A stretch of 39,154 bases of DNA from Burkholderiaceae bacterium (GTDB lineage: Bacteria; Pseudomonadota; Gammaproteobacteria; Burkholderiales; Burkholderiaceae_B), in NCBI GenBank assembly GCA_020851995.1, contig JADZBO010000169.1, positions 1 to 39,154 on the forward strand, in the 5' to 3' direction. This document shows positions 1-38,915 of the stretch, piece after piece. The notes below the pieces were generated by a model. That model was not told where the DNA came from. It saw only the letters and a program-made list of their open reading frames with translations, and made no database searches. A program made the translations under genes and the position numbers. Within the stretch, counting starts at the first letter, position 1. Each line of letters opens with the position of its first letter.

Positions 1-211
1 CGGCAGGAATCGTGTTGAGGTACGCCGTGTTGGGCGAGAACGGAATGTGCGCCCCTGACCGGCGTGCCAGATCAATCAGCCGTTCGAGCAGGTAATGGGC
101 ACGCTCAGGACCCTCGCGGTCAAGCACCGCGGCAAGCGCATCCAGCCATTCCTGCGTTTCAAGATTGTCTTCGTCCGCAGCGGCCATGAACGCGTTGGCT
201 TTAGGTGCCAT
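1..211 (-). CDS. aceE: Pyruvate dehydrogenase E1 component, N-terminal part (truncated by window edge)
   Basis: The first 70 codons read from an ATG at 211 toward the window start. The N-terminus (MAPKANAF..., then DEDNLETQEWLDAL, HYLLERLID and a Y-x-N-TIP stretch) matches the start of the homodimeric E1 component of the pyruvate dehydrogenase complex, which decarboxylates pyruvate with thiamine diphosphate and passes acetyl to AceF in the cytoplasm. An AGGAG ribosome site lies 7 bases before the start. The gene runs out of the window, so the thiamine diphosphate motif is not visible. It is divergent from the sensor kinase gene, and the roughly 170-base gap must hold both promoters. Confidence 0.85.
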   Translation of the reverse strand, partial: MAPKANAFMAAADEDNLETQEWLDALAAVLDREGPERAHYLLERLIDLARRSGAHIPFSPNTAYLNTIPA

Positions 212-282
212 GAGGATCTCCTGATTAATTATTTGTTCGATGTGGGCATTCTAGGTAAAACCGTTCATCCCGGCAACAAAAA

Positions 283-319
283 ATTTCACCTGACGGGATC
301 GATTTTTACATTGTGAAAT
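283..319. promoter_or_regulatory. Inverted repeat ATTTCAC/GTGAAAT in the divergent aceE-kinase gap
   Basis: ATTTCAC at 283-289 and its exact complement GTGAAAT at 313-319 are 23 bases apart, about three helical turns between arm centres, in the AT-rich gap between aceE and the sensor kinase gene. It could be an operator for either gene. No known regulator consensus was recognised, and a 7-base arm can arise by chance. Confidence 0.25.
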
Positions 320-379
320 ATCCTTCTTTTCAACACCGGAAGAAGACCGTCTAAAATGGGGCACTGCTGGATAACCCGA

Positions 380-2134: not shown

Positions 2135-2757
2135 ATACGCCCCAAGTCGCCAGCACTGTGTACATCGTCGATGACGACGAAGCCGTGCGCGACTCCTTGC
2201 GATGGCTGCTCGAGGCCAACGGCTATCGGGTGCGCGCATACCCAAGCGCGGAGTCCTTCCTTGGCGAGTACGACGAACAGCAACCCGGCGTCCTGATTGC
2301 CGATGTGCGCATGCCCGGCATGAGCGGGCTGGAGTTGCAGGAGCAACTCATCGCGCGCAAGTCGTCCATGCCCGTGGTGTTCATCACGGGCCACGGCGAT
2401 GTGCCCATGGCCGTTTCGACCATGAAGAAAGGCGCGGCCGATTTTCTGGAAAAACCGTTCAACGAAACCGATCTGCGGGAAATCGTCACGCGCATGTTCG
2501 AGCAGGCCAATCAGCGTCTTTCGCAGGCGCTCGCCCAGCGCAACCACGAAGCCATGCTCGCCAGGCTCACCGCACGCGAGCAACAAGTGCTTGAGCGCAT
2601 CGTCGCTGGACGCCTGAACAAACAGATCGCCGATGACCTCGGCATCAGCATCAAAACCGTTGAAGCGCACCGGGCCAACATCATGGAAAAGCTCCAGGTC
2701 ACTACCGTGGCCGATCTCATGAAGGTTGCCCTGGCCAAATCCGAGGGGGTTGCATGA
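2131..2757 (+). CDS. FixJ/NarL-type response regulator
   Basis: A 208-residue regulator. The receiver domain (1-125) has the acidic pocket [12 protein letters not shown], the phosphoacceptor D58 in [11 protein letters not shown] and the K of FLEKPFNE. The C-terminal LuxR/GerE helix-turn-helix has [15 protein letters not shown] and [26 protein letters not shown], as in FixJ, TodT and StyR. The start overlaps the kinase stop (ATGA at 2131), and its own stop overlaps the folD start (ATGA at 2754), so kinase, regulator and folD are very likely one transcript. Upstream in-frame starts inside the kinase gene are rejected because [17 protein letters not shown] begins just before the receiver fold. 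It is expected to be phosphorylated by the upstream kinase and to activate transcription; its targets are not visible. Confidence 0.9.
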
Positions 2758-3635
2758 CGGCTCGTGTGATCGACGGTGTCGCGCTCTCGGCCAGGATTCG
2801 CGAGGAAGTTGCGCTGCGCGCCGCCGCACTGACCGCCAAGGGCATCCGTCCGGGGCTCGCGGTGGTGCTGGTCGGCAGCGATCCCGCTTCCCAGGTCTAC
2901 GTGCGCAACAAAGTCGCCGCTTGCGAAAAGGCTGGCCTGTACTCCGTGCTGGAGCAATACCCCGCCACCATGACCCAGGGCGAGCTTCTCGCCCGGATTC
3001 GCGCGCTGAATGCAGATCCCGCCATTCATGGCATTCTGGTTCAGCTGCCCTTGCCCAAACACATGGATCCGCACCAGGTCATCGAGGCAATTGCCGCGGA
3101 CAAGGATGTTGACGGATTTCACGTCAGCAATGCGGGCCTGCTCATGACAGGCAAGCCCCTCTTTCGGCCATGCACGCCCTACGGCGTCATGAAAATGCTC
3201 GAAGCCGAAAACGTGCCGCTGCGCGGTGCCTCCGCGGTCATCGTCGGGGCCAGCAACATTGTCGGTAAGCCGATGGCGATGTTGCTTCAGAGTGCCGGTG
3301 CGACGGTCACCATCTGCAATTCGAAGACGCGCGATCTCGCCTGGCACACACGCCACGCGGACATCGTCGTCGTCGCCACCGGGCGTGCGCGCATGGTGGA
3401 TGGCAGCATGCTCAAACCTGGCGCGGTCGTGATCGACGTAGGCATCAACCGGACCGAGCAGGGCAAGCTCTGCGGCGATGTGGACTTCGAATCGGCCCGC
3501 GAAGTTGCTTCGGCCATCACGCCAGTACCTGGCGGCGTCGGGCCGATGACCATCGCCATGCTGCTGGTCAATACCATCGAGGCCGCCGAGCGCGCGCTCG
3601 CCGCAGGCCAGCGCTTGACGCAAACCGCCGCTTAA
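2754..3635 (+). CDS. folD: Bifunctional methylenetetrahydrofolate dehydrogenase/cyclohydrolase FolD
   Basis: A 293-residue protein of normal FolD length. It catalyses NADP-dependent oxidation of 5,10-methylene-THF to methenyl-THF and its hydrolysis to 10-formyl-THF, in cytoplasmic one-carbon metabolism. The substrate motif [14 protein letters not shown] contains the catalytic Lys. [12 protein letters not shown] and DKDVDGFH follow, then the nucleotide-binding motif [11 protein letters not shown] and the C-terminal signature [11 protein letters not shown]. The start overlaps the response regulator stop by four bases. The coupling of a signalling pair to folD is positional; no functional link can be read from the sequence. 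Confidence 0.96.
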
Positions 3636-3665
3636 CGCTTAGCACATTGAATCTCCGGGAATTAC

Positions 3666-5759
3666 ATGTCGTTTGAATTGAACCCGCTGCTCGCAGGCAT
3701 TGACGCGCCGATCAATTACGCCGCCGTCCGTCCGGAGCATATTGCTCCGGCCATCGAAGCGCTGCTGGCGCGGGCGCGAAGGGCAGTCGAGGCCGCCGCT
3801 GATCCGTCGCTTGCCCCCGACTGGGAGTCCATCATTACGCCGCTTGACGACGCCTGCGAACCGTTATGGCGCGCATGGTCGGTTGCCGCGCACCTGAATG
3901 CCGTCGTCAATACGCCAGCGCTGCGCGATGCGTACAACGCGATGCTGGGCCCGATCACCGAATATTCCACCTGGGTCGGATTGCACGAGGGGCTTTATCA
4001 ACAGTACCTGCGCCTGCGCACCAGCTCCGACTTCAACCACTGGACGCCGGCCCGCAAGCGCGTCATCGATCTGGCGATCCGCAACTTCCGGCTCAGCGGC
4101 GTTGAACTCGAAGGCGAGGCCCGCAAACGCTACGCGGAACTTTCTGAACAACAGTCGCGGGTATCGCAGAAATTCTCTGAAAACGTGCTGGATGCCATCG
4201 ACGGATGGTCGCTGGCGATCGACGATGCCTCCCGCCTGGAAGGCATCCCGCCCGACGCCCTGTCGGCCGTCAAGGTCGAAGGCGAATCGCGCTGGGTACT
4301 CAACCTCAAGATGCCCTGCTATCTGCCCGTGATGCAGTACGCGCGCGATCGTGGGCTGCGCCACACGCTTTACAAGGCGTATGCAACGGTCGCCTCGGAA
4401 CAGGGCGACGATAATTTCGATAATTCCGGACTGATCGAGCAATCCCTTGCATTGCGTGCCGAGGAGGCCGGGTTATTGGGGTTCGAACACTTCGCGGCCT
4501 TGCGGTTGCAAACCCGCATGGCCGAAAGTTCAGAGGAAGTCACAGGCTTCCTGCGCCAGTTGGCGGAACGCGCCCGCCCCTTCGCTGAGCGCGATCTTGC
4601 AGAACTGAAGGAGTTCGCCCGAACCGAGCTTGGCATTGCGGATCTGGAGCCCTGGGATGTGGCCTATGCGTCCGAGCGACTTCGTGAAAATCGCTACGCC
4701 TACTCGGAAGACGAAGTCAAGCAGTACTTCACCGAGCCGCGCGTGGTGGAGGGGCTCTTTGACGTTGCGCAGACACTTTTTGGCGTCACGCTGAAGTCCT
4801 GCGACATCCGTGGCTGGCATCCGGATGTGCGGGCGGCGAACCTCGTATCTCCCACGGGTGAAGTGCTCGGTTTGCTCGTGATGGATCTCTATGCAAGACC
4901 CGCCAAACAAGGGGGGGCCTGGGTCGACAGCGAACGCACACGGCGTCGTCGTCCTGACGGCATCCAGACACCGATTGTCTACCTGACCTGCAATTTCGCG
5001 CGCGGGCAGGACGGCAAACCCGCACTGCTCACGCACGATGATGTCATCACCCTGTTTCATGAAGCGGGCCATGCGTTGCATGCGTTGCTATCCGAGGTTG
5101 ACGAACCGGGTGTGTCGGCTTTCGCCGCGGTCGAATGGGATGCCATCGAACTGCCGTCTCAGTTCATGGAAAACTTCTGCTGGGAATGGCCGGTGGTGCA
5201 GCGCCTGACAGCGCATATCGACACCCGTGAAACGCTGCCGCGCGATCTGTACGACCGGATGGTTCAGGCACGCAACTTCCAGAGTGGTCTGCAAACCGTG
5301 CGGCAGATTGAGTTCGCCCTGTTTGACATGCTGCTCCACAGCCGCGATCAGGGGCTTTCGATCGCCGAGGTTCTGACCCAACTTGATCAGGTGCGCGACG
5401 AGGTTTCCGTACTCCGACCGCCGAGCTGGCATCGGTTTCCACACAGTTTTTCGCATCTCTTTGCGGGTGGATACGGTGCCGGATACTACAGCTATAAGTG
5501 GGCAGAGGTCCTTTCCGCCGATGCGTTCGAGGCCTTCGAGGAGGCAGTCGAGCGTGCGGCGCATGAGGCACACGAAGCCGCCACTGCGCTTGGTGCCGTC
5601 GATTCCGCCACAGGCGAACGCTTCCGGCGTGAAATTCTCGCGGTCGGAGGCATGCGACCCGCGGCCGAATCGTTCAAGGCATTCCGCGGTCGTGCGCCGC
5701 GCATGGATGCCCTCTTGCGCCACAGCGGCATGGCCGACGGATCGGAGCCTGTTGCATGA
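3666..5759 (+). CDS. prlC: Oligopeptidase A, M3 family zinc metallopeptidase
   Basis: A 697-residue cytoplasmic metallopeptidase of the thimet oligopeptidase family (M3A), the usual size for oligopeptidase A. The zinc site HEAGH is at residues 465-469 (LFHEAGHALHALL), followed by the conserved ELPSQFMENFCWE that supplies the third ligand and structural contacts. The C-terminal YSYKWAEVLSADAFEAFEE signature is also present. It degrades short peptides released by ATP-dependent proteases and signal peptides. It begins 30 bases after folD and its stop overlaps the SCO lipoprotein start (ATGA), so it probably belongs to the same operon. Confidence 0.95.
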   Translation: MSFELNPLLAGIDAPINYAAVRPEHIAPAIEALLARARRAVEAAADPSLAPDWESIITPLDDACEPLWRAWSVAAHLNAVVNTPALRDAYNAMLGPITEYSTWVGLHEGLYQQYLRLRTSSDFNHWTPARKRVIDLAIRNFRLSGVELEGEARKRYAELSEQQSRVSQKFSENVLDAIDGWSLAIDDASRLEGIPPDALSAVKVEGESRWVLNLKMPCYLPVMQYARDRGLRHTLYKAYATVASEQGDDNFDNSGLIEQSLALRAEEAGLLGFEHFAALRLQTRMAESSEEVTGFLRQLAERARPFAERDLAELKEFARTELGIADLEPWDVAYASERLRENRYAYSEDEVKQYFTEPRVVEGLFDVAQTLFGVTLKSCDIRGWHPDVRAANLVSPTGEVLGLLVMDLYARPAKQGGAWVDSERTRRRRPDGIQTPIVYLTCNFARGQDGKPALLTHDDVITLFHEAGHALHALLSEVDEPGVSAFAAVEWDAIELPSQFMENFCWEWPVVQRLTAHIDTRETLPRDLYDRMVQARNFQSGLQTVRQIEFALFDMLLHSRDQGLSIAEVLTQLDQVRDEVSVLRPPSWHRFPHSFSHLFAGGYGAGYYSYKWAEVLSADAFEAFEEAVERAAHEAHEAATALGAVDSATGERFRREILAVGGMRPAAESFKAFRGRAPRMDALLRHSGMADGSEPVA

Positions 5760-6379
5760 ATCCAAGCTGGGCAAGACGTCTGATCGGGGCATCGCTGCTG
5801 TGCATTGCATTGCTGTTGGCGGGTTGCAGCGAAAAATCACCTGACTGGACGCTTTACAACGTGACGGGGCACCTGCCGGATCTGAAATTCACGCTTCAAG
5901 GCGCGGGCAACCGAACGGTCACCGAGCGCGATCTCCAGGGTAAGACGGTCCTGTTGTTTTTCGGTTATGCCAGCTGCCCCGACATCTGCCCGACCACCAT
6001 GGCGCAGTTAAGCGAAGTGCTGCAGAAGCTCGGTGACGAAGCGCGCGACGTACGCGTCGTCTTCATCAGCGTTGATCCCCATCGGGATACGCCTGACGTT
6101 CTGCAGGCGTACGTGGATGCCTTCAATAACCAGGCGATCGGCCTGACAGGCAATGAAGCCCAGGTGGCTGATCTGGCGCGCCATTACCGCGTCGCCTACC
6201 AGATTGAAAAGCCCAAGCCGGGCGATTCAGCCGAAACCTACAACGTCACGCACAGCCGCGGCGTGTTTGTATTTGATAACCGGGGCAAGGCCCGCCTTCT
6301 GGCTTCGGATACCGAAAATGTCGATGCGGTGACAGCCGATTTGCGCAAACTCATCGACGCCACGCGCAAGCCCGGTTAA
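5756..6379 (+). CDS. SCO1/SenC/PrrC family copper-binding lipoprotein
   Basis: A 207-residue thioredoxin-fold protein with a lipoprotein signal: hydrophobic segment about 8-20, lipobox LAGC with C24 as the lipidated residue. It therefore faces the periplasm, anchored in a membrane. The copper/redox site CPDIC gives C74 and C78, and the conserved distant histidine is H166 in NVTHSRGVFVFD. The VDPHRDTPDVL stretch is family-typical. SCO proteins help deliver copper to the CuA centre of cytochrome c oxidase or keep its cysteines reduced. It overlaps the peptidase gene by four bases and ends 59 bases before the convergent flavoprotein gene. Confidence 0.93.
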   Translation: MNPSWARRLIGASLLCIALLLAGCSEKSPDWTLYNVTGHLPDLKFTLQGAGNRTVTERDLQGKTVLLFFGYASCPDICPTTMAQLSEVLQKLGDEARDVRVVFISVDPHRDTPDVLQAYVDAFNNQAIGLTGNEAQVADLARHYRVAYQIEKPKPGDSAETYNVTHSRGVFVFDNRGKARLLASDTENVDAVTADLRKLIDATRKPG

Positions 6380-18375: not shown

Positions 18376-18451
<76 letters not shown>

Positions 18452-18462
18452 ACAGATCACAA

Positions 18463-18489
18463 AACCAACCTTCTCGGTTGGTTTTTTTT
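18463..18489 (+). terminator. Rho-independent terminator of tRNA-Ala
   Basis: AACCAACC, loop TTCTC and GGTTGGTT, followed by a T run, 12 bases after the tRNA. A perfect eight-pair stem with U-tract. Confidence 0.9.
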
Positions 18490-18740
18490 CGCCAAGAGCG
18501 CCAGTGCTGGCGCAGGTGGCGCCATCGGTGCGAAGGACGCGCACGCCGCACTCGCCCACAAATTAGCCCGTTTTTCTCTCTCAGACGCGGAAATTCTCCG
18601 TTTATGCGAAGGGCGGCATTCGCCTGAAGACGAGCATTTGCGAGAATTTGTTCGCGAAAGTTCGTGACGTAAGTCGCTTTCACGCAGGCGACCCGAGCAG
18701 AAAGGTTTTTACACTGAAGTCGTAGGCGTCGTATCCGAGG
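18490..18740 (+). other. Junction stretch after tRNA-Ala, possible remnant coding segment
   Basis: No complete gene is supported. One plus-strand frame is open to the stop at 18667 and its last 37 residues (from AHKLARFSLSD to LREFVRESS) have protein-like composition, but no start codon with a ribosome site lies after the terminator. It may be the 3' remnant of a gene cut by integration at the tRNA. The rest, 18668-18740, is the 3' flank of the HNH gene; no terminator was recognised for that operon. Confidence 0.3.
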
Positions 18741-19586
18741 TCAGGTAGCGTCGAAACCGCCGTCACAGAACCAGTCGCTCTCGGCAAATGCCTCGAACGC
18801 AGAGACACGCCAACCATTGACACGAAGGGCGCGCGCGCTATCTGCGCGAGCCATTAATTCGCTACGAACGGTCTCTGCACCACCTGAACCATGGAAAATT
18901 CGAAGCTGATGTCGTATGTTGAGCAGCTCGTCGGCTCCTTGGGCCGCGTACAGGTCAGCTAATCCAAGCGTCTTAAAGTGAAGGTGTACCCGTGCGACAA
19001 GCACGGCATTCCAATGATCTGGCGGAATTACGATAAATTTCAGGGAAGCTGGCGCGGTCGTCTGCACGGACGCGAACAACCAGCGATCACCGTCGATATC
19101 GTCAAAGTAAGGATGCAGTGTCTCCTCAAATGCGTTCGTTGGCAGGCTCGCTAGCTTTGCCTTGTTGCAATCTGTACATGAGGGCACAAGGTTCAGCGGC
19201 GTGACTGCTAGAACCGGATAGTGCGCCTTGGGCAGATGGTGGTCCAGCGTGGATGCATCACGCTGTGCGCACAATGGGCACTTCCCGGAACGGGCTAGAC
19301 TCATTAGCTTGTCGTAGGCAGCTCGTCCAGGAGCGCTCTTAGGCACCATTCGCTGGGTGTATACGGCCTCCATCTCGGATGTCGTTACCAAACCGCCGAC
19401 GACGGACTCGCGTACGAACTCGTACAGCCGCACCCGGATTGCAAGGCCTTCGAAGGTTGTGGAGGCTTGGATGACATTTGGTGTCACCGAGGCCAGGCGC
19501 GCCTTGAGTGACAAATTGCGTACTCGGCTAATGCACAAGGCGAAGAACGCGCCGGCGTCCAGGTCTGGAGGATCTAACTTGATCAT
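18741..19586 (-). CDS. HNH endonuclease, putative defence effector
   Basis: A 281-residue protein with a central HNH/McrA-like nuclease. The zinc pair is CPLC (103-106) and CTDC (137-140), with the catalytic DHHLPKAHYP (115-124) and the NLVPSCTDCNKAK stretch that gives the Asn and second metal element between and around them. The N-terminal 100 residues and C-terminal 130 have no recognised domain and may bind the partner ATPase. It overlaps the ATPase gene by four bases (ATGA), so the two are translationally coupled. An ATPase with an HNH nuclease is also the composition of Septu (PtuA-PtuB). Expected activity is cleavage of phage or host nucleic acid once the system triggers; this is inference. 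Confidence 0.8.
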   Translation of the reverse strand: MIKLDPPDLDAGAFFALCISRVRNLSLKARLASVTPNVIQASTTFEGLAIRVRLYEFVRESVVGGLVTTSEMEAVYTQRMVPKSAPGRAAYDKLMSLARSGKCPLCAQRDASTLDHHLPKAHYPVLAVTPLNLVPSCTDCNKAKLASLPTNAFEETLHPYFDDIDGDRWLFASVQTTAPASLKFIVIPPDHWNAVLVARVHLHFKTLGLADLYAAQGADELLNIRHQLRIFHGSGGAETVRSELMARADSARALRVNGWRVSAFEAFAESDWFCDGGFDAT

Positions 19587-21133
19587 TGACTAGCCCCACG
19601 ATTGACCATCAGAGCTCGAATCAACGCTCGCGCCTCGCCGCCGAGCTTGCCATCAAACTTGGCGATCATGTCTTCGAAATCCACCGCGTCGCGCGCGGCC
19701 GTCCGCAACAACTGGTGGAAGCCGGAGTCCGTAACCTCAAGACCGAATACCTCGCGAGTGAGCACGCCGACGTTCTCGCCGAAGGTCTCGATGGTCGGGC
19801 GCTCGGCTTGAATTATCCGGCCGTTGCGCCAGATCTTCCAGACACATTCAGAGGGCACCTCCTGAAGTATCACCGGCGAGTGCGTCGCGACGATCGCGAC
19901 GCCGTTGCGATTCACGAGCAGGTCCGACAACGCACGCACAAAGGCAGACAGCAGGGGCGGATGGAGATGTGCCTCTGGCTCATCAAGCAGCACCAGGGTC
20001 CGCTCCTCCACAGTCTCTATCAGACGGGTAATCGTCAGAAGAACGATCTTGTGGCCAGAGCTAAGGTTGCTGAAGACTTGACGCGCACGGGCCTTCAGCT
20101 CGTCTGCTTCCGAATCAGTCTCTGCCAGCGAAGTGACGTCTGCAGCCTTGAAAATGGGATCTGCTTCGAGCATATGCAGCGCCCGTTGCCACCGACTTAG
20201 ACGGGCGCTTTGGCTGCGGCAGATGAGGACACTCGCGCCGAATTCCCGCGACAGATTGTCTGGCGATTTTGGAGCAGTGGGCTTACCCTCAGAGTTTGTC
20301 CCAGTGCGCTTGAGCCCCACGTACGCACAAGGGAACCCTTCAGAACGATCGCGGCGATTGGGCAGCGGGCCAAACGGATCGAACGCGCTAAAGGTTACCG
20401 ATACCAAGTTCGCGAATAGATCTTGGCCTTCGGTATCCTCCCCCCCCTCGAACGCACCCACTTCCTCTGGGCTTGATCGTTGGTCAACGAGCAAGCGTGA
20501 CATGTTGTTCAACAAATGCGTCTTGCCGACGCCGTTACGACCAATTAGGACATGAATATTGCTGGGCGGCATCGACTCGGGCTCAACGACAAAGGTCAGC
20601 TCAAATGGTATCCCCTTCGAACGGGCCTTTCGCGGACCAGAATACGAGAATTCGTAGCGCGACAAGCGCGCCCCCCCTTGGGCGATCCGAGCGTATTGGC
20701 CCTGCACTGTGGCTCGCGTCACGGAGCGAAGCAGCGACAGGCCGGTCACCTTCTCCTTGAGCGCCGTCTCAAGGCGCTGAGGATCGAACGCCATGTCACG
20801 TAGTCCCGTGAGAACTCGATCGCGTAGGCTCACCCCCAGCTCATTTAGGAGTTCGTAGTAGGTATCGTCTTGCCCGACAGAGAAGAACTCCTCGCCTAAC
20901 ATGTCGAACGTCGGTTCTAGATCTGGTCGTCGTTGGTCCGGTCGCATTCCAACCTGCCCAATTTTGACGCTGCCGATGCGATGAATCACGCCGTCAGCAT
21001 CCATGACGTTCAAGGTGAACATCGTGCTGAAGGAGAACCAGTCGTCCCAGTTGTCAACCAGCAAATACGCGGATTCCCCGTCAAACTTGGGTGGTGTCTG
21101 TCCCACAGTAATCACTGAAAAAAACTTATTCAT
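19583..21133 (-). CDS. SMC/OLD-like AAA ATPase of the defence operon
   Basis: A 516-residue ABC-type ATPase. Walker A GRNGVGKT is at 198-205, the signature NLSSGHK at 356-362, Walker B VLLDEPEAHLHP at 381-392, and the H-loop histidine in VATHSPVILQEV (H418). No C-terminal TOPRIM is evident, so it is not a full OLD nuclease. The first 170 residues are a distinct region without recognised motifs. GGAG precedes ATG 21133. It lies 95 bases downstream of the QueC-like gene and is fused by overlap to the HNH gene. Likely a sensor or motor for the HNH partner, as in Septu (PtuA) or Qat (QatA). Confidence 0.8.
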   Translation of the reverse strand: MNKFFSVITVGQTPPKFDGESAYLLVDNWDDWFSFSTMFTLNVMDADGVIHRIGSVKIGQVGMRPDQRRPDLEPTFDMLGEEFFSVGQDDTYYELLNELGVSLRDRVLTGLRDMAFDPQRLETALKEKVTGLSLLRSVTRATVQGQYARIAQGGARLSRYEFSYSGPRKARSKGIPFELTFVVEPESMPPSNIHVLIGRNGVGKTHLLNNMSRLLVDQRSSPEEVGAFEGGEDTEGQDLFANLVSVTFSAFDPFGPLPNRRDRSEGFPCAYVGLKRTGTNSEGKPTAPKSPDNLSREFGASVLICRSQSARLSRWQRALHMLEADPIFKAADVTSLAETDSEADELKARARQVFSNLSSGHKIVLLTITRLIETVEERTLVLLDEPEAHLHPPLLSAFVRALSDLLVNRNGVAIVATHSPVILQEVPSECVWKIWRNGRIIQAERPTIETFGENVGVLTREVFGLEVTDSGFHQLLRTAARDAVDFEDMIAKFDGKLGGEARALIRALMVNRGASQ

Positions 21134-21228
21134 TTATTGTCACTCCGCAAATTCAGAGCCACCACAACGACGATTGCATCTTTAGCGTGGCGACTGCAGC
21201 TAGGCACGTTGCCTTATCGTTACTCATG

Positions 21229-23349
21229 TCAAATATTCACAATGGGCCGAACATCCCAGGTGATTGGCATGCCGGGCCGATAGACTACGATGTTGCCGTG
21301 CTTGATGCTGGTCTTAAGGTGTTCGGCGAGCGGCTTGTCGTACTTCTCAATCTGCTTGATGGCCCGATCAACGGCGATGCGGAAGGCATCTCGGACATTC
21401 TTGCGCTTGTCGCCGGCCAAGCGCCGTCGTCCGCCGAGGCCTTTACCTCCTTCCATCGCCTTTGTCAGAAGTGCCATTTCCTCCTCAATCTTCTCAATCA
21501 GAGCGTGGTCACCAGCTGCGCGCGCATCTTCAATATCGCCAAGAAGTTCGTGGGCGCGCTGCTTCCACTCCCGGAGTGCCCGTCGGTCCGCGACGTCGCC
21601 TGCATCGGTCAGCGGCGCGCCGGTGACGATTTGATAACCTTCCTCAATATCCTCCGAAGTGACTCCCGTGTTCGCTGGTAGCTCAATTGCGTTGACAGCG
21701 CTCCCACAGGCAAGCTCATACACCGACGCCTCGCGATCCGGGAACGCTAGCAGCAGATTCAGGTACTCAGCCCCCTTGTCCGCGCCCTGGATCAGGATTG
21801 TGGTTCTGCCTCGCCCCAGAAACCGCGCCTCCCACACGCCGCCCCGTCTGCGAAAGATGTTGTCGGGCAACTTTTCTGCAGTGGCGACTGCCGGCACCGA
21901 TTCCACCGAACCCGACTCGTAGACCGAGCGCAGCAGGCAATCACCAGGCAGCGTGCGCTCCCGAATTCCTGTGATGTTTCGTGCAATCAGCGTATCAAGC
22001 GCCCCGGTCACCTCGGTCGCATGCCGCTTGTAGAGGTCAAAAACCCGCGCGGCTGCCTGCGCCGGACTTGGATCCAGATACCGAAAAACCCGGTTCACCT
22101 CCGGATAGCTGCTGATGAACTGCATCACATCCCCAAGTGACTTGACCTGATTGGCGCGCTCGAGATACGCCGCCGCCATGATCTTGTCGTCGCCCTTGTC
22201 CCGACTCTGGGTGAATACGTCGGTCTTGTAGTGGTCGGCCGGATCGTACTGGTCGGCCCTGGCTGCAACCACTGCGAAACGGCGGTCGATGCACTGTGAA
22301 CAGCCGCCGCAGTGGGTGTGCTGATTCGTCATTTCCCAGGTGTGCGTGCAGGTCATCGAATGCGCAATCAGATCCGCGCACCCACCTCGGGTGATGACCT
22401 CGACGACATCGGCCTTGGTTTTCCAGATGAAGGGGTTCTCGATGGTAAATAGCTCTCCCGCCACCAGCGAGATGATTTCCTGAAAACCCTGCATCACCTG
22501 GGGGTGGGTTGTGCGCGTGGCGCGACCACCGGCGACCTGAGCGCAGACGGGAAGATTCAGGCTGATGACGCCGTTTTCGTAAAAGCGCAGGCTGTGCAGG
22601 CCGAGCATTTTGGCAATCGTCGCACCGATCGACATGTACAGAAAGGATCGACTGCGCTGGGTGTATTCCTGATTTAGCTCCGATGCCTTGTGCACTCTCA
22701 CACCAATGTGGTGTGGCGCGTTGTCGCCCGCCTTGGCCGCCAGCAGCGCTTGCATGTTGCGATGCCGGTTATTGAGCTTCGGGGTCGATTTGTGGGTAAC
22801 AAGCACCACCCGGCGTTTCTGCGTCAGAATTTCTTCAACTGCGCCGGCCAGCGAGTCCAGGCCCCCGGAAAACATCACCACCTGCTCCGCGCGTCCAAAC
22901 ACTTCCTGGGTATCGTTGAAATCCAGATAGTCCTGAATCGCATGATCCTGCTTGAGTGCGACGAACTCAAATTGGTAATTGTCATCGGACAGAAATCCGA
23001 GTGTCGCGCGCAGCGTCTGAAGCACTTGAGGTGCGCCCCAAAAGTCTGGGTTTCGCACCGGGATGACAAAGTGCAGGTCGCGCCTCCACGCATCGCCGAA
23101 ATTGTCCACGTCGTCAGCACCACGCTTGATGGCCTGATCGGCACCGTAGACGTAGGTGGCAATCTCCAGCAGATCATGAAACTGGGTCGGAACGCTGCGA
23201 AACATCTTGGAGTGGATGTCCTCGATGTGCAGCGTCACATTGCCGTGCCCCCCTCGGCCCGAAATCTGTAAGCGCAAATCCCGATCGGAGTCCCTGTGTT
23301 TGCCTTTGACCGAAGCACCGCCGCAAAGGATGTAGCGTTTATCTTGCAT
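21229..23349 (-). CDS. QueC-like PP-loop enzyme with C-terminal signalling-type extension
   Basis: A 706-residue protein, about three times the length of QueC. The PP-loop SGGLDS (161-166) is the ATP-pyrophosphatase site of 7-cyano-7-deazaguanine synthase. A zinc-like set C334, C347, C350, C353 (CGGCSQC) mirrors the QueC zinc site. Residues 1-155 are an added N-terminal region. Residues 500-560 resemble a winged-helix segment (DKGAEYLNLLLAFPDREASVYEL), and 580-700 resemble a module with an arginine/glutamate coiled coil, GLGGRRR and HLKTSIKHGNIVVYRP that I recall from AfsR/LuxR-type signalling proteins. True queuosine genes do not look like this. It overlaps the upstream 262-aa gene by 11 bases, suggesting that protein is its substrate. 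Proposed to activate a deazapurine-like base for protein conjugation. Confidence 0.8.
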   Translation of the reverse strand: MQDKRYILCGGASVKGKHRDSDRDLRLQISGRGGHGNVTLHIEDIHSKMFRSVPTQFHDLLEIATYVYGADQAIKRGADDVDNFGDAWRRDLHFVIPVRNPDFWGAPQVLQTLRATLGFLSDDNYQFEFVALKQDHAIQDYLDFNDTQEVFGRAEQVVMFSGGLDSLAGAVEEILTQKRRVVLVTHKSTPKLNNRHRNMQALLAAKAGDNAPHHIGVRVHKASELNQEYTQRSRSFLYMSIGATIAKMLGLHSLRFYENGVISLNLPVCAQVAGGRATRTTHPQVMQGFQEIISLVAGELFTIENPFIWKTKADVVEVITRGGCADLIAHSMTCTHTWEMTNQHTHCGGCSQCIDRRFAVVAARADQYDPADHYKTDVFTQSRDKGDDKIMAAAYLERANQVKSLGDVMQFISSYPEVNRVFRYLDPSPAQAAARVFDLYKRHATEVTGALDTLIARNITGIRERTLPGDCLLRSVYESGSVESVPAVATAEKLPDNIFRRRGGVWEARFLGRGRTTILIQGADKGAEYLNLLLAFPDREASVYELACGSAVNAIELPANTGVTSEDIEEGYQIVTGAPLTDAGDVADRRALREWKQRAHELLGDIEDARAAGDHALIEKIEEEMALLTKAMEGGKGLGGRRRLAGDKRKNVRDAFRIAVDRAIKQIEKYDKPLAEHLKTSIKHGNIVVYRPGMPITWDVRPIVNI

Positions 23350-24127
23350 CGCTGCGCGCCCCCGCCTTCAATTCATCTTTCATTTTCGTGAGCGCATAGC
23401 CCGCAAAGCCATCCGACGACCTTCTGGAAATCTCCCCTTTTTCCTCAAAGCGGTGCTTCGAAAACCACTCGCTCGAAAACGTTTCCACAATCAGCGAGGC
23501 CTCGCGGGTGTGCGTCTGTAAGGCGGCGTCGAACTGAGCCTTTTGGTTGAGCGTTGCAAACCGCATACCCTCCCCCAGCTGCGTGTTCAGCGTCTTGCTC
23601 AAAAAATACTGCAGACTCTCGTTGGCCAGCCGAGCGTAAAACCCTCTCGAAAACTCCCCGAATGCTCGCGGCGTGCCAAGCGTCGACAGTGCTGCCTGCA
23701 TCGCGAGCGGGTCGGAGGGGAACAGGGTGTGCAGTCGGGGACCAAGCGCATCGGCTGCGGCGCCGACAAGGGCGCGCACGGCAAGCTCGCCAAGGTCTGA
23801 GCGCCTGGCCGAGACCTGAGTCGCGCGATCCATCGCTTCAACAAGGGCCGTCGTCACGTCCGGCAGCGTCGCCTCTTGTGGCAGCACGACGCCAACCGAT
23901 CCCAAGTGGCCCAGGGGGTCCTGCTTCTTGGCCGCGACGGCCAACTGCGTCATGAGCCACACTGCCTGCGTGTAGCCGAGATCTTGCAGGACAAACGAAA
24001 ACGCTTTCTCGGCTGCCGAAATCGTCGCGTTTGCCACCTGCGGCACATCGGCCCCAGCGGCAATCAGACCAACAACCTCCTTCCAAGCCTTCGATCTTGG
24101 CAACAGGCCTAGCCGGACATGCCCCAT
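23339..24127 (-). CDS. Conserved 262-aa protein with N-terminal Met-Gly-His-Val-Arg-Leu-Gly, candidate conjugation substrate
   Basis: A 262-residue soluble, mostly helical protein without a recognised catalytic motif. Its start, MGHVRLGLLPRSKAWKEVV, is a pattern I recall as a strongly conserved N-terminus among hypothetical proteins encoded beside QueC-like genes. Strict conservation at the very N-terminus with Gly at position 2 is what is expected when the initiator Met is removed and the glycine is modified, as in QueC-dependent defence systems. It overlaps the QueC-like gene and is 39 bases downstream of the LexA-like gene. No strong ribosome site precedes ATG 24127, consistent with coupling. 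No established function can be given. Confidence 0.6.
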   Translation of the reverse strand: MGHVRLGLLPRSKAWKEVVGLIAAGADVPQVANATISAAEKAFSFVLQDLGYTQAVWLMTQLAVAAKKQDPLGHLGSVGVVLPQEATLPDVTTALVEAMDRATQVSARRSDLGELAVRALVGAAADALGPRLHTLFPSDPLAMQAALSTLGTPRAFGEFSRGFYARLANESLQYFLSKTLNTQLGEGMRFATLNQKAQFDAALQTHTREASLIVETFSSEWFSKHRFEEKGEISRRSSDGFAGYALTKMKDELKAGARSDAR

Positions 24128-24166
24128 CCAAAAGCCCCTTACGCCGCTGAACTCACGCGATCATCC

Positions 24167-24400
24167 TCAGGCAAGGCGCTTGATGACAACGATGCTGCGT
24201 GCTTTTCGTTCTTGTTTTGACAAATACCCTTTCCGCACCAGTTGCCCAAGCTGCTCATGCGCGCTCGCGTGGCTGATGCCCAGCGCGTCGGCCAACTCCT
24301 GGACGGTCGGTGGCAGACCCGTGGCGTCCAGGATTTCACAAAGCACCCGCAGCGTCTTCGCTTGCGGGTCAGTGATGCCCGGCGTCCTTTGCTTGCTCAT
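24167..24400 (-). CDS. LexA-type winged-helix DNA-binding protein without peptidase domain
   Basis: A 77-residue protein made only of a LexA N-terminal-like domain: DPQAKTLRVLCEILDATGLPPTVQELADALGISHASAHEQLGQLVRKGYLSKQ reproduces the LexA helix-turn-helix arrangement (T..R..L..I......PPT..ELA..LG..S..). The S24 autoprotease domain of LexA is absent, so release from DNA cannot be by self-cleavage. GGAG lies seven bases before ATG 24400. It heads the five-gene minus-strand operon, and a perfect palindrome lies in its own promoter, so it is probably the autoregulatory repressor of the operon. Confidence 0.8.
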   Translation of the reverse strand: MSKQRTPGITDPQAKTLRVLCEILDATGLPPTVQELADALGISHASAHEQLGQLVRKGYLSKQERKARSIVVIKRLA

Positions 24401-24423: not shown

Positions 24424-24452
24424 AGTGTATGGCCTGATAAATATCAGGTCAA
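24424..24452 (-). promoter_or_regulatory. Promoter of the defence operon with embedded palindromic operator
   Basis: On the minus strand TTGACC (24452-24447) and TACACT (24429-24424) are spaced by 17 bases. The perfect inverted repeat CCTGATA-AA-TATCAGG occupies 24433-24448, between and overlapping the -35 box. A protein bound there would block RNA polymerase. The palindrome has CTG-N8-CAG spacing, two bases shorter than the enterobacterial SOS box CTG-N10-CAG, so it is a LexA-like but distinct site. It is the obvious target of the adjacent LexA-like protein. Confidence 0.7.
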
Positions 24453-24758: not shown

Positions 24759-25220
24759 ATGAAACCACCCTCACCCGTTCGATCTCTCGCCGCACAGATT
24801 GCTGCACTGCCGCAGCTCAACATGAAAGATCTTTGGGCATTGTGGGATAAGCATTTTCCCCGTCGCCCGCCACACAATAACCGCGCGTATGTCGAAGGCC
24901 GTCTCGCCTACAGGATTCAGGAGCTGGCGCTCGGCGCGCAGTTGTCCGCACGCGCGCAACTGGCGCGCATTGGCGAGGCGCAGTCGCAAATCAAGTCACA
25001 GCGTCGCCGCGAATTCATCGTGACCCCGGGCACGACGCTAGTGCGTGAATTCAACGATCGCGAGCATCACGTCACGGCGCAGGCCGACGGCACTTTTGAT
25101 TACGCCGGCAGGCGATTCAAAAGCTTGTCGGCTGTCGCCCGCCATATCACTGGCACCCAGTGGTCGGGACCAAGCTTTTTCGGACTTTACAAGGCCATTT
25201 CAACGCGGAGACCTAAATGA
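24759..25220 (+). CDS. DUF2924-like protein
   Basis: A 153-residue basic protein. The features LWALWDKHFPRRPPHNNRAYVEGRLAYRIQELALG and the C-terminal PGTTLVREFNDREHHVTAQADGTFDYAGRRFKSLSAVARHITGTQWSGPSFFGL match DUF2924 as I know it: an N-terminal helical part and a C-terminal RAMA-like fold. The family nearly always sits directly upstream of a serine recombinase, as here (ATGA overlap), and is thought to assist it or bind DNA. Function is not established. Confidence 0.75.
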   Translation: MKPPSPVRSLAAQIAALPQLNMKDLWALWDKHFPRRPPHNNRAYVEGRLAYRIQELALGAQLSARAQLARIGEAQSQIKSQRRREFIVTPGTTLVREFNDREHHVTAQADGTFDYAGRRFKSLSAVARHITGTQWSGPSFFGLYKAISTRRPK

Positions 25221-26584
25221 ACACCGTTGTGACCAAAAAACGCTGCGCGGTCTACACCCGCGTCTCGACCGACGAGCGTCTTGACCAGTCGTTTAACTCC
25301 CTCGACGCCCAGCGCGATGCGGGTCAGGCCTACATCGCCAGCCAGCGCTCCGAGGGCTGGTTGCCCGTCGCTGATGATTACAACGATGGCGGCTACTCAG
25401 GTGGCAACGTGGAACGCCCGGCGCTCAAGCGACTGATGGCCGACATCATCGCCGATCAGATCGACATCGTGGTGGTCTACAAAATCGACCGACTGACCCG
25501 AAGCCTCGTGGACTTTTCCAGACTGGTCGAGGTATTTGAGCGGCACAACGTGTCCTTCGTGTCAGTGACACAGCAATTCAACACAACCACCTCAATGGGA
25601 CGGCTCATGCTCAACGTGCTCCTGTCCTTTGCGCAGTTTGAGCGTGAGGTCACGGGCGAGCGCATCCGCGACAAGATCGCGGCCAGCAAACGCAAAGGCA
25701 TGTGGATGGGAGGCTACCCGCCGATGGGATATCTGGCCAAAAATCGCACACTGGTGATCCATGAGGAAGACGCCTGCATCATCCGAAGGATTTTCCAGCG
25801 ATTCACCGAAACCCAGTCAATCACGGACGTAGCGCGCGAGCTGTACCAGGAGGGCGTAACCACCAAGGCCATTCGGCTGAAGAACGGTGGTACGCGTAAC
25901 GGCACCCCCATGGACAAGAGATGCGTTTCCAAGATGCTGCGCAATCCGATCTACGTCGGCGAGGTACGCCACAAGGGCACGATCTTCGCAGGCCAGCACG
26001 AACCCCTCATCACCCGGGAGCTCTGGGATCGAGTCCAGACAATCCTTGCCGAGGATTCGAACGAGCGCATGGGTAAAACCCAAACGCGTCATAAGATCGA
26101 CGCTCTGTTGCGCAACCTTCTCTATGAATCGAATGGCGGTAAGTACCACATCACCTACAGCAAGAAATCGTCGGGTAAGAAATATCGCTATTACATGCCC
26201 AAGGCCGATAAGCGCTACGGCTACCGCCCCGGTGCGAAAGGACTCATCCCGGCCGACCAAATCGAGGAGGTCGTGGTCAACACGCTGATCGGTGCACTTC
26301 AGGCACCGGAAACGATCCACGCCGTCTGGCAGACGGTGTGCGCCCGCCACCCCGAAATTGACGAGCCTACCGTGGTACTGGCGATGCGCCACCTCGGGGA
26401 TGTCTGGAAGCAACTGTTCCCGGCCGAGCAAGTGCGGCTTGTATCTCTGCTGATTGAGCGCGTGCAGTTACTCTCGGACGGGGTGGACATCGTCTGGCGC
26501 GAATCGGGATGGCGCGAACTGGTGGGCGAACTGGCGCCTGGCACGATTGGCGCCGAACTTTTGGAAATGGAGGTTGATTCGTGA
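25217..26584 (+). CDS. Serine recombinase (resolvase/integrase family)
   Basis: A 455-residue recombinase. The N-terminal catalytic domain (8-160) has YTRVSTDE with nucleophile S17, then KIDRLTRSLVDF and FAQFEREVTGERIRDKIAASKRKG. The PF07508-type recombinase domain follows (about 180-290, with GVTTKAIRLKNGG and NPIYVGEVRHKG). The usual zinc-ribbon cysteine pairs are missing: the expected segment (LLRNLLYESNGGKYHITYSKK) has none. It probably mediates integration or excision of the surrounding element or a DNA inversion. It overlaps both neighbours, so it is part of one operon with DUF2924 and the next HTH gene. Confidence 0.9.
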   Translation: MNTVVTKKRCAVYTRVSTDERLDQSFNSLDAQRDAGQAYIASQRSEGWLPVADDYNDGGYSGGNVERPALKRLMADIIADQIDIVVVYKIDRLTRSLVDFSRLVEVFERHNVSFVSVTQQFNTTTSMGRLMLNVLLSFAQFEREVTGERIRDKIAASKRKGMWMGGYPPMGYLAKNRTLVIHEEDACIIRRIFQRFTETQSITDVARELYQEGVTTKAIRLKNGGTRNGTPMDKRCVSKMLRNPIYVGEVRHKGTIFAGQHEPLITRELWDRVQTILAEDSNERMGKTQTRHKIDALLRNLLYESNGGKYHITYSKKSSGKKYRYYMPKADKRYGYRPGAKGLIPADQIEEVVVNTLIGALQAPETIHAVWQTVCARHPEIDEPTVVLAMRHLGDVWKQLFPAEQVRLVSLLIERVQLLSDGVDIVWRESGWRELVGELAPGTIGAELLEMEVDS

Positions 26585-36265: not shown

Positions 36266-37657
36266 ATGTCACCCTTGCAAATCCATTATCGGCCGATCGA
36301 GCTGCTGATCCCGTACGCCAAGAATGCGCGCACCCACAGCGAGGAGCAGGTCTCGCAGATCGCCGCCAGCATCCGGGAGTTCGGTTTCAACAACCCGATC
36401 TTGGTCGATGGCCACCGCGGCATCGTGTCTGGCCACGCACGGCTGCTCGCTGCACGCACGCTGGCGCTGTCCGAGGTGCCGGTGATTGAGCTCGCACACC
36501 TGAGCGAGACGCAGAAACGCGCCTTCATCCTGGCCGAGAACAAACTCGCGGAACACTCGGGCTGGGACAGCACACTGTTGTCGCTCGAACTGGCAGACCT
36601 GCAGAACGCGGGCTTCGATCTGGGGCTGACCGGCTTTGATGATTCGGAAATCCAGTCCTTGCTCGACACGGACGAGGATGCCAGTGCCGACGAAGCGCAG
36701 GACTCAGCCGATGAGTTGCCGGCGCCACCCGCGAAACCTGTCAGTCGCACGGGCGACGTCTGGGCGCTCGGTGAGCACCGCCTGATCTGTGGCGATGCCA
36801 CGGACTCTGCGGTGATTACCGCCCTGATGGGTGACCAACGCGCAACACTCTGCTTTACCTCCCCCCCCTACGGGAGCCAACGCGACTACACCGACACCAT
36901 CGTCGATTGGGATGGCCTGATGCGCGGCGTGTTGGCCACGCTCCCCATGGCTGCCGACGGACAGGTGCTCGTCAACCTTGGGCTCATCCACCGTGACAAC
37001 GAGGTGATGCCGTACTGGGACGCTTGGCTCAAGTGGATGCAGTCCGCGGGCTGGCGCCGCTTTGCCTGGTACGTCTGGGACCAGGGGCCGGGAATGCCGG
37101 GCGACTGGAACGGACGTCTGGCACCCAGCTTCGAATTCATCTTTCACTTCAATCGCGAGTCGCGCCGCCCCAACAAGATCGTGCCCTGCAAGCATGCGGG
37201 CCAGGAATCACACCTGCGCTCGGACGGTTCATCGACCGCGATGCGCAAGAAGGATGGCGAAGTCGGCGGTTGGTCGCACGCCGGCACGCCCACGCAGGAC
37301 ATGCGCATCCCCGACAGCGTTATCCGGCTCATGCGCCACAAAGGCAAGATCGGTGAGGACATCGATCACCCGGCCGTGTTTCCGGTCGCGCTGCCCGAGT
37401 TCGTGATGGAGTCCTTCTCCGCCAAAAGCGACATCGTATTTGAACCGTTCAACGGCTCCGGCACCTCGTTGCTGGCTGCACAGCGTACCGGGCGCCGCTG
37501 CCGTGCAGTGGAAATCGCTCCCGAATACGTGGACGTGGCAATTCGTCGCTTCCAACAAAATCATCGAGGTGTCACCATCACGCTCGTTGCCACTGGCCAG
37601 TCGTTCGAAGATGTCGCTACCGAGCGCTTGGGCACAGACGGAGGTGCCCATGCGTAA
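36266..37657 (+). CDS. ParB-N domain/DNA methyltransferase fusion, SPPY type
   Basis: A 463-residue protein. The N-terminal ParB-like domain (5-100) has LIPYAKNARTHSEEQVSQIA, VDGHRGIVSGHARLLAA and LSETQKRAFILAENKLAE. An acidic linker (130-155) leads to a beta-class methyltransferase with motif IV TSPPY (198-202) before motif I FEPFNGSGT (392-400). SPPY suggests N4-cytosine methylation, though this is not decisive. No restriction nuclease is adjacent, so it is an orphan phage methylase that probably protects phage DNA or regulates packaging. It overlaps the next, related gene by eight bases. Confidence 0.9.
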   Translation: MSPLQIHYRPIELLIPYAKNARTHSEEQVSQIAASIREFGFNNPILVDGHRGIVSGHARLLAARTLALSEVPVIELAHLSETQKRAFILAENKLAEHSGWDSTLLSLELADLQNAGFDLGLTGFDDSEIQSLLDTDEDASADEAQDSADELPAPPAKPVSRTGDVWALGEHRLICGDATDSAVITALMGDQRATLCFTSPPYGSQRDYTDTIVDWDGLMRGVLATLPMAADGQVLVNLGLIHRDNEVMPYWDAWLKWMQSAGWRRFAWYVWDQGPGMPGDWNGRLAPSFEFIFHFNRESRRPNKIVPCKHAGQESHLRSDGSSTAMRKKDGEVGGWSHAGTPTQDMRIPDSVIRLMRHKGKIGEDIDHPAVFPVALPEFVMESFSAKSDIVFEPFNGSGTSLLAAQRTGRRCRAVEIAPEYVDVAIRRFQQNHRGVTITLVATGQSFEDVATERLGTDGGAHA

Positions 37658-38915
37658 CCCCCTCACGGACCTGAAGATCGAACTGCGATCGGTTTCCGCT
37701 CTGATCCCGTATATCCGGAACAGCAAGCAACACTCCGATGCCCAGGTCGCCCAGATCGCAGCCAGCATCGCAGAGTTTGGCTGGGGCGCTCCAATTCTTG
37801 TCGATGGTCAGAACAACGTCATCGCCGGCCACGGCAGATTGCTTGCGGCACGCAAGCTCGGCATGACCGAGGTGCCCGTGGTTCCCATGGCGCATCTGAC
37901 CGACGTTCAGCGCAAAGCCCTGATCCTTGCCGACAACAAGATCGGTGAGAACGCCTCCTGGGACGACGAGTTACTGGGCCTTGAACTGGCCGAGTTGCAG
38001 GAGGCTGGGTTTGACCTGGCACTCACTGGCTTCAGCGCCGATGAGTGGGATACGCTCATTGCCGGCGACGAGGGCAGCGAAGGACTGACCGACGAGGACG
38101 CGGTTCCTGAGGTCTCGGAGGATCCGGTGACTCAGCCAGGCGACGTATGGGTGCTCGGTGAACACAAAATTCTGTGCGGCGACGCGACCAAAGCGGAAGA
38201 CTACAAGGCATTGTTGGGCGAGGAACTGGCCGACATGACCGTGACCGACCCGCCTTACAACGTGAATTACGCCAACACCGCCAAGGACAAAATGCGCGGC
38301 ACCAACCGCCCCATTCTGAACGACAACATGGGCGACGGCTTCGCAGGGTTTCTGACTCTCGCCTGCCAGAACATCCTCGCCGTCACAAAGGGTGCGGTGT
38401 ACATCGCCATGAGTTCATCCGAGCTCGACACCCTGCAAGGCGCGTTCCGGGCTGCCGGTGGTAAGTGGTCAACCTTCATCATTTGGGCGAAAAACACCTT
38501 CACCATGGGTCGCGCCGATTACCAGCGCCAGTACGAACCCATCCTCTACGGCTGGAAGGACGGCGCCCAGCACTACTGGTGCGGTGCCCGCGATCAGGGC
38601 GACGTCTGGCAGATTAAGAAGCCGCACAATAACGATCTGCATCCGACCATGAAACCGGTGGAACTGATGGAGCGCGCCGTACGCAACAGCAGCAAGACGC
38701 GCGACATCGTGCTCGATCCGTTTGGTGGCTCGGGCACCACGCTCATCGCCTGCGAGAAGTCAGGACGGCGGGCGCGTCTGATCGAACTCGATCCGAAATA
38801 CATGGACGTGATCATCAGGCGCTGGCAATTGTTCTCTGGCCATGAAGCCAAACGCGCCAGGGATGACGCGAAGTTTGGGGACTTGGTGAAGGCGGATCAG
38901 GTCTCGACTTTGTAG
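37650..38915 (+). CDS. ParB-N domain/DNA methyltransferase fusion, DPPY type
   Basis: A 421-residue paralogue of the preceding gene with the same layout: ParB-like domain (ALIPYIRNSKQHSDAQVAQIA, VDGQNNVIAGHGRLLAARKL, ILADNKIGENASWD), acidic linker, then a beta-class methyltransferase. Motif IV is TDPPY (D200) and motif I DPFGGSGTT (D356). DPPY is typical of N6-adenine methylases. GGAGGT precedes ATG 37650, within the upstream gene. With its neighbour it could modify two different bases. Its 3' end overlaps by 19 bases the convergent DUF3489-like remnant. Confidence 0.92.
   Translation: MRNPLTDLKIELRSVSALIPYIRNSKQHSDAQVAQIAASIAEFGWGAPILVDGQNNVIAGHGRLLAARKLGMTEVPVVPMAHLTDVQRKALILADNKIGENASWDDELLGLELAELQEAGFDLALTGFSADEWDTLIAGDEGSEGLTDEDAVPEVSEDPVTQPGDVWVLGEHKILCGDATKAEDYKALLGEELADMTVTDPPYNVNYANTAKDKMRGTNRPILNDNMGDGFAGFLTLACQNILAVTKGAVYIAMSSSELDTLQGAFRAAGGKWSTFIIWAKNTFTMGRADYQRQYEPILYGWKDGAQHYWCGARDQGDVWQIKKPHNNDLHPTMKPVELMERAVRNSSKTRDIVLDPFGGSGTTLIACEKSGRRARLIELDPKYMDVIIRRWQLFSGHEAKRARDDAKFGDLVKADQVSTL

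Follow-up and report, generated by a model that had tools for sequence, protein, structure and literature searches.

Among the described defence systems, the closest to the locus reported here is Qat, in which QatB and QatC alone protect against lambda and the G2D substitution in QatB abolishes defence (PMC13279940, partial text). Type IV CBASS likewise contains an enzyme of the QueC fold, Cap9, which is published to act on an N-terminal glycine. We analyzed a 39,154-nucleotide stretch of a Burkholderiaceae genome (assembly GCA_020851995.1, contig JADZBO010000169.1, positions 1 to 39,154; hereafter the window), where a minus-strand run of five genes at 18741-24400 is transcribed in the order winged helix-turn-helix regulator (wHTH), MGH protein, QatC-like enzyme, ATPase and HNH protein. 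On balance, we read the first three genes as a QatBC-like module that is carried by a prophage and lacks QatA and QatD. It would probably serve superinfection defence by modifying the N-terminus of MGH, and the defence cargo behind it is unrelated. What merits attention is this three-gene core, which is carried by phages, driven by a QatC-type enzyme and has a putative substrate other than QatB.

24167-24400, minus strand: wHTH, 77 amino acids, LexA DNA-binding domain alone (PF01726, E 1.2e-13), putative autoregulator
23339-24127, minus strand: MGH protein (MGHVRLG start), 262 amino acids, all-helical model, putative substrate of the QatC-like enzyme
21229-23349, minus strand: QatC-like enzyme, 706 amino acids, QatC-like part about 56-394, C-terminal extension about 470-706
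19583-21133, minus strand: AAA_21 ATPase, PDC-M01A / PtuA-like, cargo, 516 amino acids (PDC-M01A E 8e-207, PtuA1 E 3.3e-195)
18741-19586, minus strand: HNH protein, PDC-M01B, cargo, 281 amino acids (E 3.5e-103)

The first-pass annotation, made from the letters of the stretch, had described these genes as one Qat-like arrangement in which an HNH nuclease replaces TatD. Its account of five same-strand genes, separated by 39 and 95 bases or overlapping by 11 and 4, is accurate to the base, and the SGGLDS, HNH and Walker motifs that it named are present. The likeness to Qat holds for the B-C pair, but the HNH protein and ATPase are not supported as replacements for QatD and QatA within a single five-gene system.

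The third gene encodes a QatC relative

The enzyme, previously called QueC-like, is a relative of QatC by three approaches. HHalign against ten QatC from annotated or apparent Qat operons gave E 3.9e-49, the PADLOC QatC match had E 1.7e-53, and the best solved match of the enzyme model (predicted local distance difference test score, pLDDT, 72) was QatC of the QatB-QatC complex (9y01_B; E 2.9e-17, template modeling score by target 0.69). With the NCBIfam QatC model it scored 208.9 bits, short of the cut-off of 280.

The window enzyme shares with QatC the ATP loop (SGGLDS), the Thr-x-Thr-x-His motif (TRTTHP) and the four zinc cysteines. SGGLDS, T278-R-T280-T-H282-P and C334/C347/C350/C353 are invariant in 29/29 rows of the enzyme alignment, which, like the 32-row MGH alignment, was hand-chosen with near-duplicates or incomplete loci left out. 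The Thr-x-Thr-x-His signature, found in all 29 aligned enzymes and all 21 divergent ones described below, is that of QatC, whereas QueC and Cap9 have Tyr/Asp; in QatC these threonines stand in for Tyr/Asp and are required for defence (PMC13279940, partial text). The substrate pocket thus differs from that of Cap9, and neither CD-NTase nor Cap10 was found among the genes scanned (the five genes and two neighbours). The YPDC motif of canonical QueC is absent from the enzyme as well. In a midpoint-rooted tree of 26 rows with several long branches, the MGH-partnered enzymes and the partnerless L057 (L and G numbers are our labels for loci and contigs) cluster together (98/92), apart from the Qat enzymes (100/98).

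The window enzyme exceeds QatC by about 250 residues, and its C-terminal part, which matched no Pfam family, is a different one. The C-termini of distant members resemble the winged helix of response regulators (Trans_reg_C in 6/9 at E<=1, best 0.0018), and a PDB profile search with them ranked response-regulator domains first, at E 0.05 or worse. These matches are weak but consistent, and the domain looks DNA-binding in distant members. In the Leptospira enzyme (L056), the C-terminus matches a DpnII-MboI domain (E 1.2e-9, above Pfam's cut-off); here SGGADS takes the place of SGGLDS, and Ser that of the first Thr. The L056 locus lies on a Leptospira noguchii plasmid, where an MGH homologue and this enzyme occupy 3207-5851. 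A 240-residue C-terminal query gave a single, weak hit among plasmids, to an AAA ATPase from Streptomyces (E 8e-4). At L013 the QatC-like gene is interrupted.

MGH stands in the place of QatB

The partner gene lies directly upstream of the QatC-type gene, as qatB does, and its product shares with QatB an N-terminal Met-Gly and a disordered start; the sequence differs, with MGH at the start where QatB has MGTS. The MGH model is all-helical, with low confidence at residues 1-9. No family was matched at E<=0.001 in Pfam, PADLOC, NCBIfam or PHROGs.

The Met-Gly-His N-terminus is conserved in 32/32 aligned rows and in the 26/26 homologues listed in a wider scan, which yielded 54 loci. From these we examined 21 divergent loci (30-65% identical), excluding those above 66% identity and four that matched over fewer than 50 residues; L242, which exceeds 66%, was looked at separately. 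In all 21, the MGH homologue precedes a QatC-like frame with SGG[LVM]DS, TRTTH and the cysteine motif intact, and any gene overlaps there depend on the chosen start codon (longest frame). At L054, MGH carries an internal deletion, and wHTH and recombinase are both missing.

Within the class, MGH was matched in 6 of 369 sampled genomes, two of them marginally. A tblastn search of 72,556 plasmid records and of phage records (E<=1e-3) returned no match, an absence that is weak because the search missed the 23%-identical Leptospira protein, which we found via QatC. Plasmid QatC partners begin MGTS in all ten of one alignment (A4); elsewhere they begin MGHE (L056), MGSG (L059) or MGTA (L062), and the partner at L058 lacks Met-Gly as annotated. 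The L059 locus (Bradyrhizobium plasmid, 7-5760), with a QatC-like gene, its glycine-rich MGSG partner and flanking CHAT-domain and ASCH proteins, is possibly another QatBC-type system with a protease-like component. L062 (Halolamina plasmid, 3162-5431) holds an archaeal QatC-like gene and the MGTA-starting upstream gene, a seemingly split partner.

wHTH, MGH and the QatC-like enzyme recur together in prophages

We compared 41 other MGH loci, 11 from viral contigs and 30 from species genomes, the latter by their titles from alpha-, beta- and gammaproteobacteria, sulfate reducers (e.g. Desulfosarcina) and Opitutaceae. A QatC-like gene was present in 40 (L051 ends first), wHTH in 38, and the recombinase with DUF2924 in 34; four of the seven loci without the latter two begin less than 1 kb upstream of MGH. 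The ATPase or HNH gene occurred in none of the 41, nor in 22 further loci. The three genes recur together in prophages, and the five are not one conserved system. Many loci are near-identical (e.g. L010, L011, L026), and the counts are of contigs, not of independent events. A literature search that covered neither bioRxiv nor most subscription papers returned no account recognisable as this module.

A conserved operator-like site accompanies the regulator

24424-24452, minus strand: putative wHTH operator-promoter, -35 TTGACC, 17-base spacer, -10 TACACT, palindrome at 24432-24449

The first gene had been called a LexA-like repressor. The LexA DNA-binding domain is indeed shared, but a Pfam scan did not find the S24 autoprotease of LexA in the 77 residues, and we rejected an SOS-cleaved LexA on this ground. 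The suggestion that it adds control to the module is probably right, as a conserved operator-promoter accompanies it. Here, a palindrome, ACCTGAT-N4-ATCAGGT (one mismatch in the window), fills the -35/-10 spacer upstream of wHTH, and the consensus across loci reads TTGACC, palindrome, then a TATATT-like -10. This site is unlike the LexA box.

At up to two mismatches, 39/42 loci (the window and the 41) have one copy each, and the site is absent in exactly the three loci without wHTH (L050, L053, L054). In the window it is the sole site even at three mismatches, and its meaning rests on conservation because 0.81 sites are expected there by chance. The 54.7-kb related contig G520 also has a single copy, at the module's own promoter; L270-L272 have an extra site with two mismatches about 4 kb further on. 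With one site each in the window and G520, local autoregulation appears likelier than phage-wide repression, and we consider a phage-wide repressor unlikely. Among the divergent loci, wHTH and operator are both present in 4/21 and both missing in 17/21; they belong to a closer lineage of the module. At L268 the MGH-QatC pair occurs without wHTH, while L242 has wHTH without an operator at up to two mismatches, beside genes that look like terminase.

Proposed function of the module

In our model, the QatC-like enzyme, with ATP bound at SGGLDS, would activate a small acid and join it to the N-terminal glycine of MGH, exposed once methionine is removed. The modified MGH-enzyme complex, set on DNA by the enzyme's C-terminal domain, would stop an incoming phage. 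We hypothesize that wHTH binds the spacer palindrome and represses its own promoter, so that the module and the downstream cargo, if co-transcribed, would be kept low until derepression. Of the possible functions, we rank defence through N-terminal modification first because of the QatBC analogy (lambda protection; PMC13279940, partial text) and the defence genes among the cargo, described below.

Several points weigh against this model. The action of QatC on QatB is itself an open question in the partial text of PMC13279940, and we infer the module's role in defence by analogy. MGH is not detectably related to QatB by HHalign (probability 1.4%), its model has no PDB fold match at E<=0.001, and it lacks the 30-90 residue tail of QatB; as neither a profile nor a fold relation was detected, we rejected homology between MGH and QatB. 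Reading the enzyme's C-terminus as a winged helix draws on weak matches. Cargo genes of L013 and L052 had no PADLOC match, and that of L030 was not in that scan. Nor does the module invariably adjoin the presumed attachment site, because at L045, L047, L051 and L055 QatC is followed by other genes or by the end of the contig; at L045, L051 and L055 the tmRNA sits on the recombinase side instead. Finally, an XRE regulator is often at the module's place in module-less relatives, from which a phage-control role could follow.

If the proposed modification occurs, QatC-driven N-terminal modification would exist in a second lineage that does without QatB and travels mostly in temperate phages. The enzyme pocket is the same, the candidate substrate is unrelated and the N-terminal glycine is conserved; the QatC question could thus be put to an independent partner, and the features common to both partners (Met-Gly start, helical body, adjacency) are likely what the chemistry needs. 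The comparison also places a QatC-type core in temperate phages of several bacterial classes, with its own operator in one lineage and a slot for interchangeable defence genes. More tentatively, and as a possibility that we would not expect to hold, MGH-QatC might be a phage-made, DNA-acting protein-modification switch, in which a ligase fused to a winged helix (or, in Leptospira, to the DpnII-MboI nuclease) marks the MGH glycine and activates a DNA-bound complex that decides rival exclusion or prophage behaviour.

Prophage context and a possible but unlikely role in lysogeny control

18376-18451, plus strand: tRNA-Ala(CGC), presumed attachment site (elsewhere tRNA-Ala(CGC) or tmRNA at the same place)
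18457-18696, minus strand: conserved non-coding spacer beside the presumed attachment site, with a hairpin at 18461-18489
24759-25220, plus strand: DUF2924 protein, divergent from the module, conserved neighbour (domain scan, locus comparison)
25217-26584, plus strand: large serine recombinase of the prophage (domain scan, locus comparison)

The five genes had been placed between tRNA-Ala and a prophage. Comparison with other loci sets them instead inside the prophage, between the recombinase and the presumed tRNA attachment site. To the right of the module lie DUF2924, the large serine recombinase and genes such as a D5-type primase-helicase. G520 carries the module alongside genes for tail, tape-measure, endolysin and spanin proteins, and we therefore regard the element as most likely the prophage of a tailed phage. 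Attachment repeats were not found, and no direct repeat of at least 14 bases is shared with the module end of G520. The spacer hairpin, AACCAACC-TTCTC-GGTTGGTT, was read from the sequence and is not listed by the hairpin/terminator scan. By eye, the conserved non-coding region of about 257 bases contains two imperfect repeats in the window and other loci; it perhaps provides recombination arms or an RNA. The same recombinase type adjoins both tRNA-Ala(CGC) and tmRNA genes (L009-L055, module-side ends), whose 3' ends may share an attachment core.

This setting bears on the reading that we consider the strongest rival, although unlikely: a lysogeny or prophage-control switch, in which the QatC-like enzyme and MGH govern phage or host promoters via the winged-helix-like C-terminus, tuned by wHTH. 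We keep it because the module often holds a regulator-like place. It is divergent from DUF2924-recombinase, where a repressor would stand, and the Trans_reg_C-like C-termini of distant enzymes fit such a role. In 20 module-less relatives, HTH_3 was found in 11 and, by hand-worked distances, an XRE domain no more than 2 kb from DUF2924 in eight; without four contigs picked for a known XRE the counts are 7/16 and 6/16. Eight chosen module-bearing viral contigs had HTH_3 in 1/8 and S24 in 0/8. An XRE-IrrE-type pair lies 3-4 kb off in L175 and L183, and at L081, L082 and L175 the recombinase is 75-81% identical with the module absent despite more than 5 kb upstream. A recombinase relative (34-51% identical) is near the pair in 12/21 divergent loci, but the other nine have no such recombinase, five of them with more than 4 kb upstream. 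At L050 and L053 the pair has a tyrosine integrase as neighbour (both matches fall below Pfam's cut-off), and with the nuclease-bearing enzyme it is found on the Leptospira plasmid. Together with the operator, unrepeated elsewhere in the window or G520, which makes wHTH look local (L270-L272 having their second site), these cases argue against a control switch.

The ATPase-HNH pair is independent cargo

We continue to favour defence by the three-gene module, whose downstream genes vary. The slot runs from the QatC-like gene to the presumed attachment site at the tRNA or tmRNA; among 37 distinct contigs in which the conserved non-coding stretch was found, it is vacant in 26 and occupied in 11. 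The stretch from the QatC stop to the tRNA-Ala(CGC)/tmRNA 3' end measures 256-259 bases in 14 empty loci of the 21 measured. The filled slots are those of the window (ATPase-HNH), L009-L011, L013, L027, L028, L030, L031, L163 and L052. L009 carries a DUF4145 gene with a weak defence-profile match (4.1e-5; L010 and L011 assigned by likeness), L013 two genes, one with DUF4145, L027 a ResIII helicase matching a defence profile, and L028 a 2015-residue Avs1b-like protein (8.2e-19). At L030 the cargo is, by eye, a small protein with a hydrophobic end (L031 and L163 assigned by equal length).

The window's ATPase-HNH pair is an independent, Septu-like pair in this slot. The first-pass annotation recognised no named system here, and in PADLOC the pair matches the Septu-related candidate PDC-M01: the ATPase (Walker A GRNGVGKT, LSSG, VLLDEPE) is matched along its length by PDC-M01A and by one PtuA1 profile, and the HNH protein, with its zinc finger, by PDC-M01B. 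The likeness to Septu is the cargo's, not that of the QatC-like module. With NCBIfam PtuA the ATPase scored 45.6 bits, far below the cut-off of 500. In the 72,556 plasmid records (E<=1e-5) the ATPase was matched in 96 and the HNH protein in 82; on the E. coli plasmid stretch L065 the pair stands alone, the other three genes being absent.

These data make it quite improbable that the five genes form a true Qat variant with the ATPase and HNH protein as effectors of an MGH-QatC core. The genes do share a strand and tight spacing, terminator-like sites are not above chance (7 versus 5.7 in shuffles, region-wide), and cargo runs in the same direction as the module in the nine filled contigs with open reading frames listed. 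However, the pair is missing from every other module locus compared, the slot is mostly empty, and the pair occurs alone on plasmids; we thus rejected the five genes as one system, and with it the replacement of TatD by HNH. Failure to co-occur applied to the ATPase and HNH genes only. Unlike Qat, the window set has no QatA (KAP) or QatD (TatD), its ATPase and nuclease being AAA_21 and HNH, and its module is prophage-borne with its own wHTH and operator. The KAP family was found in 0/12 chosen related contigs, which are possibly fragments.

Production of a free base or modification of phage DNA in an anti-restriction role, as the module's QueC fold and the PHROGs filing of the matching family as a QueC-like moron might suggest, is very improbable, given that Thr replaces the base-binding Tyr/Asp as in QatC and that QueD was found in 0/12 of the same contigs, in searches that did not extend to DNA transglycosylases. 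No link to queuosine was seen in this search, which did not extend to queE and queF, and the canonical queC of the same genome lies on a separate contig (C213). Elsewhere in the prophage, two adjacent genes at 36266-37657 and 37440-38915 of the window look, by eye, like ParB-like/DNA methyltransferase genes.

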